A model generated the notes under the pieces. It saw only the letters and a list, made by a program, of their open reading frames with translations, had not been told where the DNA came from and did no database searches. A stretch of 64,000 nt of DNA from Aquificota bacterium (GTDB lineage: Bacteria; Aquificota; Aquificia; Aquificales; Aquificaceae), in the NCBI GenBank assembly GCA_030549905.1, contig JAUQQK010000005.1, forward strand, positions 1-64,000, read 5' to 3'. Position numbers and translations under genes: made by a program. Of this stretch, positions 27,106 to 31,855 are shown in pieces. How positions within the stretch are numbered: the stretch's first letter is position 1; the number at the start of each line of letters is the position of its first letter.

Positions 27106-27819
27106 TTAAACTGCCACCTTCTTGGGGGGTGGTGGTAGGAAGGGCTCTAAACCCTGCTCCTGAGCCCACCTCTGAGCAAGCTCATAGGCTGCCTTTGCGG
27201 TGTTAAGGTTCTTCTCTATCAGCTCTAACTTCTTCTTAAACTTCCTTTCCAGTGCAGAGTCCAGAGAGGCTGTTCCACCAGAAGCCACAAATTTCTTAAG
27301 GAACCTTGACTTTATACCCTCTTCTATAGCCTCCACACTCACCACACCTATTGCACCAAAAAGTGCACCTATCATAGCCATGTTGGTGGAAAGCTCAGTG
27401 CCGGCTATGTCTATGGCGAACTTGGTGGCTGGGAAGTTAAGCACCTTAACCTCAAGGGATTCAAGAAATTCCTTATCCTCTTCAGTGAGCAGGTCCTCTT
27501 CCGTGTTTATGATAATAAGACCCCTCCTTTTGATGCCCGAGTAAAAGGGCATGGTGTAGGATTTGCCCATGGTTATCACCTGAGGGTGGAAGACCATAAT
27601 TACATCAGGGTAGACCACCTCTCCCCTATCGTATATGGGAGTCATGCCTATGCGGGCATAGCTCTCTGCTGGTGCCATTCTTTTCTCTGCACCGAAGAAG
27701 GGGTTTGAAACTGCATAGTAGCCCTCGTAGTCCGCAGCGGTGGCTATTATGTGGGCGGCGGTGACCGCACCCTGACCGCCCAGTGCTGGCATCCTTATGT
27801 TAACCCTGCTTCTCTTCAT
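27106..27819 (-). CDS. porG: 2-oxoacid:ferredoxin oxidoreductase gamma subunit
   Basis: This is the gamma subunit of the thiamine-dependent complex that interconverts 2-oxoacids and acyl-CoA with ferredoxin. The 237-residue protein has MPALGGQGAVTAAHI near the N-terminus (the GGQG loop of gamma subunits). It also carries STNMAMIGALFGA. The C-terminus ends in a proline run (LPPPPKK) not usual for the family. It is last in the operon, with an ATGA overlap with the beta gene. Pyruvate is the likely substrate from the five-subunit arrangement, but 2-oxoglutarate cannot be excluded. Confidence 0.88.
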   Translation of the reverse strand: MKRSRVNIRMPALGGQGAVTAAHIIATAADYEGYYAVSNPFFGAEKRMAPAESYARIGMTPIYDRGEVVYPDVIMVFHPQVITMGKSYTMPFYSGIKRRGLIIINTEEDLLTEEDKEFLESLEVKVLNFPATKFAIDIAGTELSTNMAMIGALFGAIGVVSVEAIEEGIKSRFLKKFVASGGTASLDSALERKFKKKLELIEKNLNTAKAAYELAQRWAQEQGLEPFLPPPPKKVAV

Positions 27820-28676
27820 AGCAGACCCTCCTCTTTCTTCCTGTTTATCACCTCTTCCGCCTGAGGCGTCATGTATTCAAAGAAGGCAAACCTTTCCTTG
27901 TCCCTTTGCCTCATCTCATCAAGACCATCGTCCGAGTTAAGACCTATCTCTAATATGCAAGGCGTATACAGATGCACGTAGGTGGGTCCCACTTCCCTTG
28001 CCACATATATAGCCTTCTTTATAACCGTTTCCACTCTCTTGGGGGAAGATACGGTGAGCCTTGCCACATAGTGGCATCCAGAGTCTATAGCTATCTGCCA
28101 GAAGGGCACCTTATCCCACTGCTTACCCTTTGGAGCCATCTTAAAGACATGTCCTTTGACGGTAAGACCGCTTTCCTGACCGCCTGTGTTTGCATAAACC
28201 TCATTGTCAAAGCAAATGGTGGTTATCTTCTCCTGTCTGAAGAAGGACTGAAGCGTGCAGTCAAGACCTATATCCACTGTGGCACCGTCTCCTGCAAGCA
28301 CTACCACGTCCTTTACCTTATCAGGGAACCTCCACTCAAGCACCCTCTTTATACCGGAAGCAACCGCATTCTGGTTTCCAAATAGAGAGTGCACCGTGTG
28401 AAGGGCTATGTGCGGGAAGACCAGGGAAGTGCAGCCGGTAGAATTGACTATTATTGTATCCTCTGGATTGGGCAGGGAGGCAAGTATGTATCTGAGAGCC
28501 ATGGACTCAGGACATCCCGCACACAGAGAATGCTCTTCGATAAGCTCCTTTGAATAGGGCAGGTCCATCACACCCCTTTTGGGGTTGCCCCAGGTGGCTT
28601 TAAACTGGAGGTCCCTGATTTCCTGGGGCATAACGTCCAGAAGCTCTTCGTTTATCTCATAAATCTTAAAGGACAT
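27816..28676 (-). CDS. porB: 2-oxoacid:ferredoxin oxidoreductase beta subunit (TPP-binding)
   Basis: The 286-residue beta subunit holds thiamine diphosphate and a 4Fe-4S cluster. Cluster cysteines are visible in LCAGCPE and NSTGCTS. The TPP/Mg motif runs from AGDGATVDIG to FDNEVYANTGGQ. In the reverse TCA cycle this complex carboxylates acetyl-CoA to pyruvate with reduced ferredoxin. The start overlaps the alpha-subunit 3' end by 11 bases, and GGAGG in the alpha gene supplies the ribosome-binding site. Confidence 0.92.
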   Translation of the reverse strand: MSFKIYEINEELLDVMPQEIRDLQFKATWGNPKRGVMDLPYSKELIEEHSLCAGCPESMALRYILASLPNPEDTIIVNSTGCTSLVFPHIALHTVHSLFGNQNAVASGIKRVLEWRFPDKVKDVVVLAGDGATVDIGLDCTLQSFFRQEKITTICFDNEVYANTGGQESGLTVKGHVFKMAPKGKQWDKVPFWQIAIDSGCHYVARLTVSSPKRVETVIKKAIYVAREVGPTYVHLYTPCILEIGLNSDDGLDEMRQRDKERFAFFEYMTPQAEEVINRKKEEGLL

Positions 28677-29874
28677 GTTTTACCTCCTTTCCTGTTAGTT
28701 TAAGGACCTCTTTAACTATAACCTCCGCAGGCATGGTCATACCACCAGCCACCCTTGGACCACCTATAACTTCCGCATCTGAAACACCATACAGGTATCT
28801 TCTCACCTCCCTTTCAAGCCAGCCCACCACGTTAAACTCGGGCACGAAGATGTATCTGGCACCCTTGACGGCCTGACGTAGCTCTTCAATGGGGAAGGGT
28901 CTTATGGTTTTGAGCTTTACCACTCTTGCCTTTATGCCCTCTTCCTCTTCAAGAAGTCTAACCGCTTCTTTTGCCTGAGCGGCGGCGGTTCCGCAGGCTA
29001 CAAAGACAAGCTCTGCGGTAGGGTCTCCAAACTCTTCTATAAGACCCCTGAGGTAGTGCTTGGCATAAGGCCTTGACCTTTCAATGGCAGAACGTACCTC
29101 CCACTGCCAGCTGGCGTGGGTTGCGTAGGATATGTAGTTGGACTTCATCACGAAGGGGTCTCTAAGAAACCTTCCGGGTGGCACCTCAGCATCTATTACG
29201 GGCATGGGTGCTCTGTAGGGGTTGTAGGGGGGTAGAGCTATGTCGTCCGGTGGAAGCATTATGGCTTCCCTCGTGTGGGATACAAAGAAGCCGTCCACAA
29301 CCGTTATCACCGGCACATGCACATCGGGCTGTTCAGCCACCACAAAGCCCGCAAGTATCATGTCAAAGAGGTCCTGAGCGTTTTCCGCATACCATATCAT
29401 GCAACCTGTATCAAGCAAGAAGCCCACTTCTAAGTTGTCAGGTTGTATAGAAAGAGGAGAATTTACACCCCTTGCCATAAGCACCAGCTGGACGGGTATC
29501 CTCGTGCCAGCCCACATGGGAAAGTTTTCAAAGGCTCTTAGGGTTCCCGGTCCTGAAGTGGTGGTTATGGTTCTTGCACCTGCCAAAGCACAACCTGCTA
29601 TTTCTGACATAACACCAAACTCGGATTCACCTCTGAAATATACACCCACATAGCCTTCTACCCACAGCTCGCCTATCAGGTGCGCCGCTTCTGACTGGGG
29701 AGTTATGGGGTAGGACACAGAGGCGTCCACAGAAGCCCTTTTGACCGCCTCTTTTACCGCCTCAGAGCCTGTCATGAAGTGCTTTGTCCTTGGGGCTTCA
29801 AAAAGAAGATAATCGGGGGAGACAACTCTCTGCCCCGCCCTGTTGTATATTACGGTATCGGTAGCAGTCTGCAT
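28666..29874 (-). CDS. porA: 2-oxoacid:ferredoxin oxidoreductase alpha subunit
   Basis: This 402-residue alpha subunit has the pyrimidine-binding domain. It carries FMTGSEAVKEAVKRA, SYPITPQSEAAHLIGE, RGESEFGVMSEIAGCALAG and TTTSGPGTLRAFEN, all typical of POR alpha chains. A C-terminal transketolase-like domain carries FVACGTAAAQAKEAV and RPFPIEEL. AAAGGAGG stands before the ATG. It follows one of two Uma2 genes that interrupt the operon, with a 67-base gap that shows no promoter. Confidence 0.92.
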   Translation of the reverse strand: MQTATDTVIYNRAGQRVVSPDYLLFEAPRTKHFMTGSEAVKEAVKRASVDASVSYPITPQSEAAHLIGELWVEGYVGVYFRGESEFGVMSEIAGCALAGARTITTTSGPGTLRAFENFPMWAGTRIPVQLVLMARGVNSPLSIQPDNLEVGFLLDTGCMIWYAENAQDLFDMILAGFVVAEQPDVHVPVITVVDGFFVSHTREAIMLPPDDIALPPYNPYRAPMPVIDAEVPPGRFLRDPFVMKSNYISYATHASWQWEVRSAIERSRPYAKHYLRGLIEEFGDPTAELVFVACGTAAAQAKEAVRLLEEEEGIKARVVKLKTIRPFPIEELRQAVKGARYIFVPEFNVVGWLEREVRRYLYGVSDAEVIGGPRVAGGMTMPAEVIVKEVLKLTGKEVKHVL

Positions 29875-29941
29875 AGCCTACCTCCTTTAAAAGATTTAGC
29901 TTTAAATGTATTAAAAAGCATGGTGGATTGAATGATAAAAA

Positions 29942-30487
29942 TCATGCAAATACCTCCTCAAGCTCCACACAGAAGCCTTCCAGAAGCTTAGAACATACTT
30001 TGCCCTTTTCATAGGCATGAGAGAAGACCTCATACTCCTGACCCTTGAGAACTAAAACCTCTATCACCCTTTCTTCTGGAAGGACAAGCCAGAACTCTTT
30101 AACACCATACCTGGCATAAAGCTTTCTTTTATCTTCTACATCTCTTTTGAAGGTGGAAGGGGACACTATTTCCACCACAAGGTCTGGCGCGCCAAATATG
30201 CCCTTCTCTTCTACTATATGCAGGTTCTCTTTTAAAACCACCACAAGGTCTGGCTGAAGGACGGTATGCTCGCTCAAAACCACATAAAAGGGAGCAAGAT
30301 ATAGCTTACCCTTATCCTCCTTCCTTAGAAAAGAGGCAAATTTTATGGCGAGTTCTAAGCATGCTTCCTGATGCTTTTTACCCGGTGCTGGCATTTCTAC
30401 AAGCTCACCCTCTAAAACCTCATACCTTCTGTCATCTTCCAGCTTAAGATAGTCCTCGTAAGTCCAGGGCTTTTCTGCGGTTTTCAT
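29942..30487 (-). CDS. Uma2-family (DUF820) PD-(D/E)XK nuclease-fold protein, copy 2
   Basis: This 181-residue Uma2 protein has TYEDYLKLEDDRRYEVLEG, then LQPDLVVV, GAPDLVVEIVSPST and KRKLYARYGVKEFWLV. These are the Asp, Glu-x-x and Lys elements of the restriction-endonuclease fold. Family members are abundant in cyanobacteria and thermophiles and their role is unknown. It begins with an ATGA overlap with the 189-residue por gene. 176 bases (29976-30151) are identical to the paralogue at 31110-31285, while the middle of the two proteins differs strongly. Confidence 0.85.
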   Translation of the reverse strand: MKTAEKPWTYEDYLKLEDDRRYEVLEGELVEMPAPGKKHQEACLELAIKFASFLRKEDKGKLYLAPFYVVLSEHTVLQPDLVVVLKENLHIVEEKGIFGAPDLVVEIVSPSTFKRDVEDKRKLYARYGVKEFWLVLPEERVIEVLVLKGQEYEVFSHAYEKGKVCSKLLEGFCVELEEVFA

Positions 30488-31053
30488 TTCCCGAGTTCCT
30501 TCTTCACCTCTTCCGCTATTTTTATGAACTTTTCCATTTCTTCCACATGCTGGTCTCTCAAGGTTATCATGGCATCTTCATGCCCTGCCATACCGCACAT
30601 GGCTATGGTAAAACAGTCCGTTTCAGCCCTTATAATCTTGAGAGCCACGTTGGCATAGTGGCAATGCACGCCTACAAAGATACAAGCCTTTATCTTGTTA
30701 TGCCATATGGTAAGGTTTGGGTGGTTTGGGTTTATCTCCACCGCAGGGTTTATTTTTGGATACTTGGGCCTGTAGTCATACATGGGTATTATCTTTGCAC
30801 CGAGAACCTCAGCCATCTTCTTGACAAGCCTTGCCTTTTCTTTGGCTTCCTCGTTCCACGCATACAGCACCTGAGGTCCCGGGAATATGGTGGGGTTTGG
30901 GCGTGTTAGCATGGCTTTAGCAGCTTCGCGCATAGCCACTTCTTCATCTACTATTTCATTAAACATGAGGGCTTTACCCGGCGGTGGGTTTAAAATGCCT
31001 TCATAAACCGCCACAGGGTAAGGTGAAAACCCGCTTGGTCCAAGTGTTGCCAT
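30484..31053 (-). CDS. Accessory subunit of the 2-oxoacid:ferredoxin oxidoreductase
   Basis: This 189-residue protein is similar to the fifth subunit found in the Hydrogenobacter five-subunit pyruvate oxidoreductase and to proteins annotated as CO dehydrogenase beta-subunit-like. It contains PHLTIWH-type NHPNLTIWHNKIKACIFVG, HCHYANVALKIIRAETDC and MCGMAGHEDAMITL. Several Cys/His are present but no classic ferredoxin motif. It sits between the two Uma2 genes, has GAAGGAGGTAAAG before its ATG, and belongs to the operon by position and direction. The D or E letter is not assigned because naming differs between organisms. Confidence 0.78.
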   Translation of the reverse strand: MATLGPSGFSPYPVAVYEGILNPPPGKALMFNEIVDEEVAMREAAKAMLTRPNPTIFPGPQVLYAWNEEAKEKARLVKKMAEVLGAKIIPMYDYRPKYPKINPAVEINPNHPNLTIWHNKIKACIFVGVHCHYANVALKIIRAETDCFTIAMCGMAGHEDAMITLRDQHVEEMEKFIKIAEEVKKELGK

Positions 31054-31075
31054 ACTTTACCTCCTTCTTAAAGTT

Positions 31076-31621
31076 TTATAAAAAGACCTCCTCAAGCGCC
31101 ACACAGAATCCTTCCAGAAGCTTAGAACATACTTTGCCCTTTTCATAGGCATGAGAGAAGACCTCATACTCCTGACCCTTGAGAACTAAAACCTCTATCA
31201 CCCTTTCTTCTGGAAGGACAAGCCAGAACTCTTTAACACCATACCTGGCATAAAGCTTTCTTTTATCTTCTACATCTCTTTTGAATGTGGAAGGGGATAC
31301 TATCTCCACCACAAGGTCTGGTGCTCCAAAAACAGCCCTCTCCTGAAGAATATCCTCTCTTTCTTTAGATACAAATATTATGTCTGGCTGAACCACCAGC
31401 CTTTCAGAAAGCACCACATCTACAGGTGCGTGAAATATACTGCCTGTCTGTCTTTCCTGCAAGTAGATAAGTAGCCTGTGAAGAAGCTTTACTGAAACCT
31501 TCTGATGCTTCAGGCTTGGTGCTGGCATTTCTACAAGCTCACCCTCTAAAACCTCATACCTTCTGTCATCTTCCAGCCTGAGGTAATCCTCATAAGTCCA
31601 GAGCTTTTCTTTTGTGGTCAT
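31076..31621 (-). CDS. Uma2-family (DUF820) PD-(D/E)XK nuclease-fold protein, copy 1
   Basis: This 181-residue paralogue of the gene at 29942 has the same N-terminal (WTYEDYL, EDDRRYEVLEGELVEMPAP) and C-terminal halves. The middle is different (KHQKVSVKLLHRLLIYLQE; VQPDIIFVSKERED). The nuclease-fold motifs are GAPDLVVEIVSPST and YARYGVKEFWLV. It starts 3 bases after the ferredoxin-like subunit stop and ends 22 bases before the 189-residue subunit, so the two Uma2 genes alternate with por genes. Confidence 0.85.
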   Translation of the reverse strand: MTTKEKLWTYEDYLRLEDDRRYEVLEGELVEMPAPSLKHQKVSVKLLHRLLIYLQERQTGSIFHAPVDVVLSERLVVQPDIIFVSKEREDILQERAVFGAPDLVVEIVSPSTFKRDVEDKRKLYARYGVKEFWLVLPEERVIEVLVLKGQEYEVFSHAYEKGKVCSKLLEGFCVALEEVFL

Positions 31622-31624
31622 GGC

Positions 31625-31855
31625 TTACTTTTCCGCATGTACCTCTGGCATTATCATGTGAATGGCGTTTCTTTTTAACAGGTTCACGCACACATAGACG
31701 CATAAGGCACAGCCCTTGCACCTGTCCTGAACCACATAGGCATGATGCTCCTCATCTGTGTACATGAGGGTGTTGGGCTCTGGGCAGAACAGCGTACATT
31801 GCTTGCAATTATACTTACTGCATTCTTCGTTAATCACCTCCGCCACATAATACAT
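31625..31855 (-). CDS. Ferredoxin-like subunit of the 2-oxoacid oxidoreductase
   Basis: This small 76-residue iron-sulfur protein is first in the operon. One cluster motif is DRCKGCALCVYVCV, the CxxCxxCxxxC type. A second, looser group is SKYNCKQCTLFCPEPN. It would pass electrons between ferredoxin and the catalytic subunits. CTTAGGAGGCAAGGC precedes the ATG. The 91-base upstream region holds the divergent promoters to the S41 protease gene. Confidence 0.82.
   Translation of the reverse strand: MYYVAEVINEECSKYNCKQCTLFCPEPNTLMYTDEEHHAYVVQDRCKGCALCVYVCVNLLKRNAIHMIMPEVHAEK

Follow-up and report, generated by a model that had tools for sequence, protein, structure and literature searches.

Why do two genes for predicted nucleases alternate with the subunit genes of a carbon-fixation operon, and why do these two genes resemble each other at the two ends but not in between? 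These questions are raised by a 64,000-nucleotide (nt) stretch of DNA (the window) from a heat-loving Aquificota bacterium of the Aquificaceae (assembly GCA_030549905.1, contig JAUQQK010000005.1, positions 1 to 64,000), in which two members of the Uma2 family (DUF820/COG4636), here called UmaA and UmaB, lie in a por-type operon on the minus strand. UmaA (31076-31621; 181 residues) occupies the slot between porD and porE (porD|porE) and UmaB (29942-30487; 181 residues) the slot between porE and porA (porE|porA); their matches to PF05685 scored 115 and 111.2 bits, respectively, against a gathering cut-off of 27 bits. These matches and the gene order on the minus strand (porD, UmaA, porE, UmaB, porA, porB, and porG) bore out an initial annotation, made from the DNA letters, which had described two Uma2 genes alternating with por subunits. 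As judged from the DNA and the predicted proteins, the comparisons below showed that gene conversion exchanges flanks between copies of one locus, and that residues 39-66 come in discrete cassettes: most copies of one locus have different ones, some cassettes are met again in several species, and sister species can have different cassettes at the same position. They also showed that the putative catalytic residues are conserved, that coding change is restrained, and that the slots are fixed in the genus.

The two genes agreed at 425 of 546 positions overall, but the middle (30162-30379 in UmaB and its counterpart in UmaA) had only 118 matches in 218 positions. A block of 176 nt in the 3′ part of UmaA (31110-31285, minus strand) was confirmed as an exact run identical to 29976-30151 (minus strand) in the 3′ part of UmaB, and codes for approximately residues 113-171. 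The likeness of the 3′ halves and the unlikeness of the middle had been recognized before; what had been overlooked is a 60-nt identical block near the 5′ ends (31518-31577 in UmaA and 30384-30443 in UmaB, both on the minus strand), and the pair is therefore alike at both ends. When the matching sites were permuted 20,000 times, the longest run was 52 nt, and a run of 176 nt never arose. We divided the genes into segments N (residues 1-38), M1 (39-66), M2 (67-97), and C (98-181). The synonymous distance between UmaA and UmaB was 0.14 in C and saturated in both M1 and M2, and the hypervariable M1 cassettes (31424-31507 in UmaA and 30290-30373 in UmaB, both on the minus strand) showed 40% nt identity.

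Trees of 20 por copies gave conflicting relationships for the different parts of the genes. The tree of the flanks joined UmaA and UmaB (support 96/97), whereas the tree of the middles rejected this grouping (approximately unbiased test, p = 0.0045). In the latter tree, the branch of UmaA was long (1.03), and UmaB grouped with porE|porA copies of the related genomes G005, G008, and G010 (96/95). The M2 of UmaA was nearest to porD|porE copies of G011 (0.71) and G007 (0.65), and its M1 had no close match among the por copies (best 0.52). The tree conflict and these nearest matches suggest that the middles keep an older history and that the ends were made alike later. Together with the permutation test and the exact runs, the conflict supported the earlier proposal of gene conversion between the two copies. 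The middles appear to be discrete versions, which are either not homogenized by conversion or swapped.

Uma2 genes were found in 13 of the 14 genomes searched in the genus of the window genome, the exception being 65% complete, with 1 to 27 per genome; the profile search counted 14 in the window genome and 108 in the genus. From the fetched regions, 121 open reading frames (ORFs) were extracted, of which 106 were full length (at least 165 residues), including 90 of the 104 ORFs of the genus. More than one full copy was present in 24 of 49 genus loci. We compared 66 same-locus pairs of one subfamily, including copies separated by another gene and one pair from outside the genus (G021_c23), after exclusion of three of 69 pairs that involved a copy of another subfamily (G007_250k_1). 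M1 was the least alike segment by nt identity in 56 of these 66 pairs, with medians of 0.81 for N, 0.52 for M1, 0.69 for M2, and 0.74 for C. The permutation test reached its floor (p = 0.001) in 28 of the 66 pairs; 17 of 25 loci contained one or more of these pairs. Seven subfamilies were distinguished among the 90 full-length genus copies, and entropy was highest in M1 in all seven. In pairs with a C segment at least 0.9 identical and a different M1, 385 of 464 fourfold sites were identical in C and 30 of 62 in M1; therefore, the DNA itself differs in M1, beyond the amino acids. The 1.7-Mb genome G013 carried 27 Uma2 matches, among them two series of five head-to-tail genes whose ends overlap or almost touch (L127:2057-4785 and L126:2075-4776).

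Structural prediction placed the variable segment in the protein. The AlphaFold2 (AF2) model of UmaA (mean predicted local distance difference test score, 92.9) showed a first core helix (codons 37-57; 31451-31513, minus strand; assigned by DSSP), a strand (residues 60-64), and then strands around the PD motif; M1 covers the predicted first core helix and the next strand. The best solved structural match was 6okh (Z 29.2; root mean square deviation, 1.3 over 176), followed by 9y1l, 3ot2, and 1wdj at Z 20-22, and none of these four structures is titled with a demonstrated function. Fold matches beyond Uma2 included 3ijm (Z 11.3), type IIG and HsdR nuclease domains, and NucC (Z approximately 5-6); we rejected these as signs of closer kinship, as they reflect only the common nuclease fold. 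An H-PD-EXX-K active-site pattern was described for the family by Feder and Bujnicki (PMC551604; this and the other papers cited by PMC number are reported from the parts available to us). The corresponding residues H39, P79, D80, E106, and K120 are present in UmaA and UmaB and did not vary in an alignment of 35 copies, which comprised the por, serA, and oxidoreductase kinds as well as relatives. Among the 90 genus copies, the putative catalytic D80, E106, and K120 were present in all and P79 in 76, and residue 39 was His in 72 and Asn in 18. Thus, the family score, putative active site, and fold of UmaA and UmaB agree with those of the Uma2 family of predicted PD-(D/E)XK nucleases. Helix positions 46 and 50 were hydrophobic in all copies and positions 42 and 54 in most, and the remaining positions varied among charged, polar, and bulky hydrophobic residues, which in the model suggests a helix with a buried face and a variable contact surface. 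UmaA and UmaB are best read as intact predicted PD-EXX-K nucleases with a hypervariable, exchangeable helix.

Comparison between species indicated how these cassettes behave over time. We examined 36 cross-genome pairs whose flanks were 0.85 or more identical; M1 identity was below 0.6 in 18 of them, lay between 0.6 and 0.7 in two, and reached 0.8 or more in 16. The clearest contrast at a single position was that between G003_por_3 and G013_por_2 (flanks 0.95 identical, M1 identity 0.56), and the middle of G003_por_3 was identical to that of its neighbor G003_por_4. In 27 matched-cassette pairs, which were chosen by an M1 identity of at least 0.70 and are not independent, the ratio of nonsynonymous to synonymous change (pN/pS) was 0.22 in N, 0.25 in M1, 0.17 in M2, and 0.20 in C. 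The same cassette is thus as constrained across species as the rest of the gene, contrary to the free diversification of the middle that had been suggested at first, and persistence across species was apparent for 11 cassette classes. Point hypermutation of the middle (e.g., by a diversity-generating element) was dropped as the main cause because synonymous sites of M1 also differ and matched cassettes are conserved between species; no reverse transcriptase search was made. Traffic of cassettes between subfamilies also found no support, as none of 3,410 between-subfamily pairs reached an M1 nt identity of 0.70 (highest, 0.69).

These data bear on a simpler explanation, in which UmaA and UmaB are old duplicates with a little constrained first helix, occasional conversion makes their ends alike, and no selection acts on the middle. 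A surface helix can drift, and conversion alone gives low divergence at the ends. However, conversion should homogenize the middle as well unless different middles are favored, the entropy maximum fell on M1 in every subfamily, and M1 of matched cassettes was held nearly as tightly as the other segments (0.25 against 0.17-0.22, slightly the highest, in pairs picked by M1 identity). We consider this explanation unlikely, albeit one to be taken seriously.

To place the two genes in context, we compared the operon slots of the subfamilies, in which the names nuo, serA, hemB, purH, peroxiredoxin-like, and argG-like were read from domains and sequences (with Pfam for ten neighbors in the window genome). 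The por subfamily occupied porD|porE and porE|porA. The nuoCD|nuoH slot was occupied in two different nuo operons by one subfamily each, the second of which was also found past nuoH. Of the remaining subfamilies, one followed a molybdopterin oxidoreductase subunit and in most cases preceded its iron-sulfur subunit; one was located behind serA and close to a peroxiredoxin-like gene; one adjoined hemB or an inositol-phosphatase-family gene or stood ahead of an argG-like gene; and one lay between purH and a moaD-like gene. All 49 genus loci shared a neighbor gene cluster with another locus, and only the nuoCD and nuoH clusters were met by two subfamilies, besides the region G007_250k, which comprises two separate loci. 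Among the 49 genus copies that follow a same-strand non-Uma2 gene, 28 overlapped its stop codon by 4 nt and 48 lay within 20 nt of it; nine of the 90 copies lacked a same-strand gene directly upstream in the ORF set used. Outside the genus, G016 and G021 shared the porE|porA slot, and G021 also had the nuo and oxidoreductase slots. In the window genome, Uma2 genes lie between nuoCD and nuoH in two nuo operons (L104:3220-3741 and L105:3350-3859) and belong to two subfamilies. A carbon-fixation-specific role, as a special tie to this operon would imply, was dropped because the family also occupies nuo, molybdopterin oxidoreductase, serA, purH, hemB, and other slots. The conserved catalytic residues, low pN/pS, and slots common to genera argue against decaying or freely jumping passengers.

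Among 24 genomes with a PorE orthologue, 13 had Uma2 in the por operon: 11 of 13 within the genus (the exceptions being G004 and G009) and two of 11 outside it (G016 and G021). The count of 11 includes G001, with a shortened por Uma2, and G002, in which por Uma2 runs off the contig; the por operon is cut by contig ends in both. The shortened gene of G001 (L097:126-569) encodes 148 residues, its profile match skips positions 75-109, and its PD motif seems to have been lost in frame. The porD|porE slot was occupied in five of the 24 genomes, and the copy numbers in the first and second slots were 0+0, 0+1, 1+1, 1+2, 2+1, and 2+2. The host order D-E-A-B-G was otherwise retained, and porD beside porE was not found in G023 and G028 in the search of the relatives' por operons. 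In a separate collection of 51 named loci, several of which come from the same genomes, a few of which are titled outside Aquificota, and some of which are cut by contig ends, Uma2 was present at porE|porA in 15 and at porD|porE in none. Overall, the porE|porA slot was filled in 19 of 45 rows, with at least seven state changes on the por-gene tree. Deletion scars at empty slots were unsupported (best z, 2.5 for the G004 versus G008 gene end; others at most 2.3). The layout is therefore not uniform among relatives and divergence along the genes is uneven, so that the initial proposal of conversion stood on this count as well.

The closest named records by PorE were titled Hydrogenobacter, Thermocrinis, or Aquificaceae, with one titled Acidobacteria. 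The por proteins of the latter (L162, Acidobacteria bacterium) are the same as those of G009, which belongs to the genus of the window genome; the record is probably a mislabeled bin. The por operon of L172, titled Sulfurihydrogenibium yellowstonense, grouped with Hydrogenobacter, which suggests transfer or a mixed assembly. L193 and L201 carried two Por/Kor-type sets head to tail (E-A-B-G-D, then E-A-B-G), and L193 had a second porD between its two sets.

The patchy filling of slots is relevant to a second alternative, in which Uma2 proteins are site-specific homing nucleases: each subfamily would recognize the DNA of its own slot in a conserved gene, cut operon copies in which that slot is empty, and spread by repair, and the helix would track escaping targets. 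The restriction of one subfamily to one set of operon slots in the genus and the presence at porE|porA in 19 of 45 rows are in line with this scheme, and homing-like selfish spread was proposed by Feder and Bujnicki (PMC551604). On the other hand, slots common to several genera look inherited, the helix versions of one slot differ widely, and tandem arrays of up to five copies are unexpected once a site is filled. We therefore judge homing to be distinctly unlikely.

In the window, the genes of the host operon surround the two Uma2 genes on the minus strand: porD (31625-31855), a ferredoxin-like subunit with a Fer4_21 match barely above the cut-off that lies at the same place in relatives; porE (30484-31053), of 189 residues and resembling the CO dehydrogenase beta/acetyl-CoA synthase (ACS) epsilon subunit (PF02552, 201 bits); porA (28666-29874; PF01855); porB (27816-28676; PF02775); and porG (27106-27819; PF01558). 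In the Pfam search, PorD, PorA, PorB, and PorG thus matched ferredoxin and POR-type domains. The tight spacing noted at first was confirmed by measurement: UmaA begins 3 nt after the porD stop and ends 22 nt before porE, the UmaB start overlaps the porE stop (ATGA), and 67 nt separate UmaB from porA. Throughout the window, 11 of 46 co-directional neighbors had a 4-nt stop overlap, and 35 of 46 were at most 20 nt apart.

Uma2 expansion and some tandem copies are known in Cyanobacteria and Thermus (PMC551604, PMC1274311, PMC9403480). Insertion was described as "virtually random" and tandem duplications as generally rare (PMC551604), whereas the genes studied here have fixed operon slots, multiple copies in 24 of 49 genus loci, and a variable helix cassette. 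Uma2 in the gene cluster of pyruvate:ferredoxin oxidoreductase (PFOR) is already in print for Aquifex aeolicus (aq_1194; PMC10052474); this is the cluster of the same enzyme with a single copy, and the available part of that paper describes no mosaicism or slot pattern. The protein was hardly or not detected in extracts and was absent from the PFOR activity band. A DUF820 gene also lies inside the hox hydrogenase operon of Synechocystis, another redox-enzyme operon (PMC4963859), where it was discussed as associated with toxin-antitoxin genes, with no helix variation described in the part available. Thus, Uma2 in the Aquifex PFOR cluster is known, and we found no description of a hypervariable helix, conversion mosaics, helix cassettes, or conserved operon slots in Uma2 in the literature accessible in part, with subscription journals mostly outside the search.

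The nearest worked-out case is, by analogy, Rpn (COG5464), a PD-(D/E)XK nuclease that forms tandem arrays and defends against some phages, and whose hypervariable helix is a dimer interface that sets which antitoxin fits (PMC10327210). Rpn has in common with UmaA and UmaB the nuclease superfamily, tandem arrays in the genus, and a hypervariable stretch in a helix, but Rpn varies by four-residue repeats in its C-terminal domain, whereas Uma2 here varies in the first core helix. No Rpn family match was found in UmaA and UmaB, for which Pfam gave only Uma2 at E 0.001, and hypervariability of the C-terminal Rpn kind was absent, as variation in Uma2 peaks at residues 36-65. The two families are reported to be linked through scores for gene neighborhood and fusion of COG5464 and COG4636 (PMC1913061), and Uma2 was called a likely solo toxin (PMC2701414) and listed among the restriction endonucleases of defense cargo (PMC8649781).

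This likeness raises a third alternative, an Rpn-like gene-within-gene toxin-antitoxin system in which an internal start gives a short protein that blocks the full nuclease. An in-frame ATG precedes the variable helix at residue 32 in UmaA (31526-31528) and UmaB (30392-30394) and was present at residues 31-33 in 86 of 90 genus copies. Shine-Dalgarno matches of at least 6 nt at the internal ATG occurred in 32 copies, against 11.6 ± 2.8 (maximum, 18) in 200 synonymous shuffles. However, the excess was small for matches of at least 5 nt (44 against 32.2 ± 3.9; the copies are not independent, and the shuffle overstates the contrast), the match largely follows from conserved Gly-Glu-Val residues, and it was absent in most copies of two subfamilies, with por copies having only 4-5 nt. 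As read from these codons, an internal start is not convincing, and we regard the whole scheme as improbable. Least probable of the alternatives is that Uma2 proteins regulate the host enzyme complex or assist its assembly and are adapted to their respective operons, since, despite slot-specific subfamilies inside enzyme-complex operons, one por operon holds two copies with unrelated helices, 11 of 24 genomes have a por operon without Uma2, and the A. aeolicus protein is missing from the PFOR band (PMC10052474).

The explanation that we favor, and to which we give about an even chance of being right, is that these proteins are specificity-helix nucleases at fixed slots of metabolic operons, with cassettes shuffled by recombination and a likely use against phage or foreign DNA. 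The helix would be a specificity surface, most likely for the nuclease's own oligomerization or for partner recognition, as in Rpn. Selection would keep co-resident copies different at the helix, and homologous recombination in the conserved ends would shuffle the cassettes and leave the catalytic frame the same in all copies. Uma2 would most likely serve as an innate nuclease that acts alone on phage or foreign DNA, with steady expression coming from riding in growth-essential operons; it would then not be part of pyruvate synthase. More tentatively, and with less than even confidence, solo PD-EXX-K nucleases with an exchangeable first-helix cassette, which recombination between tandem copies would shuffle among otherwise uniform proteins, might constitute an innate defense repertoire or a self-recognition code in which every nuclease would pair exclusively with its own kind. 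A likeness in working is offered by HsdS of type I restriction systems, in which variable recognition segments are swapped between conserved flanks, although the methylase/HsdR partner is not found in the por operon here.

Several observations weigh against the nuclease-repertoire explanation. M1 was not the least alike segment in 10 of the 66 same-locus pairs, including two neighbor pairs with identical middles in G003; the M1 contrast was weaker in one nuo-slot subfamily (entropy, 0.77 versus 0.40-0.60); and 62 of 73 cassette classes (75% nt identity) were confined to one genome. The rule of one subfamily per slot is apparent only inside the genus. It is looser outside, where the flanks of the G021 Uma2 at a nuoCD|nuoH slot most resemble those of the purH-slot subfamily (0.52); within the genus, the copy G007_250k_1 had no same-strand neighbor. 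Tight packing is partly a habit of the window genome, in that 35 of 46 co-directional neighbors in the window lie within 20 nt. The region 27106-31855 contained no adjacent antitoxin gene, its other genes being por subunits, and no cognate methyltransferase (the rest of the genome was not searched), and the case for an internal start that would give an inhibitor is not convincing. In favor of a defense use, UmaA and UmaB both matched PDC-S03 in PADLOC (E 6.5e-42 and 1.9e-44), but the library comprises known and candidate defense proteins, with "PDC" presumably meaning candidate; a full-text search found no literature on PDC-S03. Likewise, no tested nuclease, toxin, or defense function of Uma2 was found in the literature available in part. 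One Uma2 ORF was found in each of four plasmid regions of Cyanobacteria and Thermomicrobium (four of 67 records with a match, picked for two or three matches in the record), which gave no array to compare.

A sharply bounded and exchangeable hypervariable helix in intact predicted nucleases points experiments at one surface of the Uma2 proteins, a widespread family, and the fixed slots contrast with the published view of random insertion, which came mainly from Cyanobacteria. Should the choice of partner or target depend on the helix, the core operons of these bacteria would house a repertoire of reshuffled nucleases.

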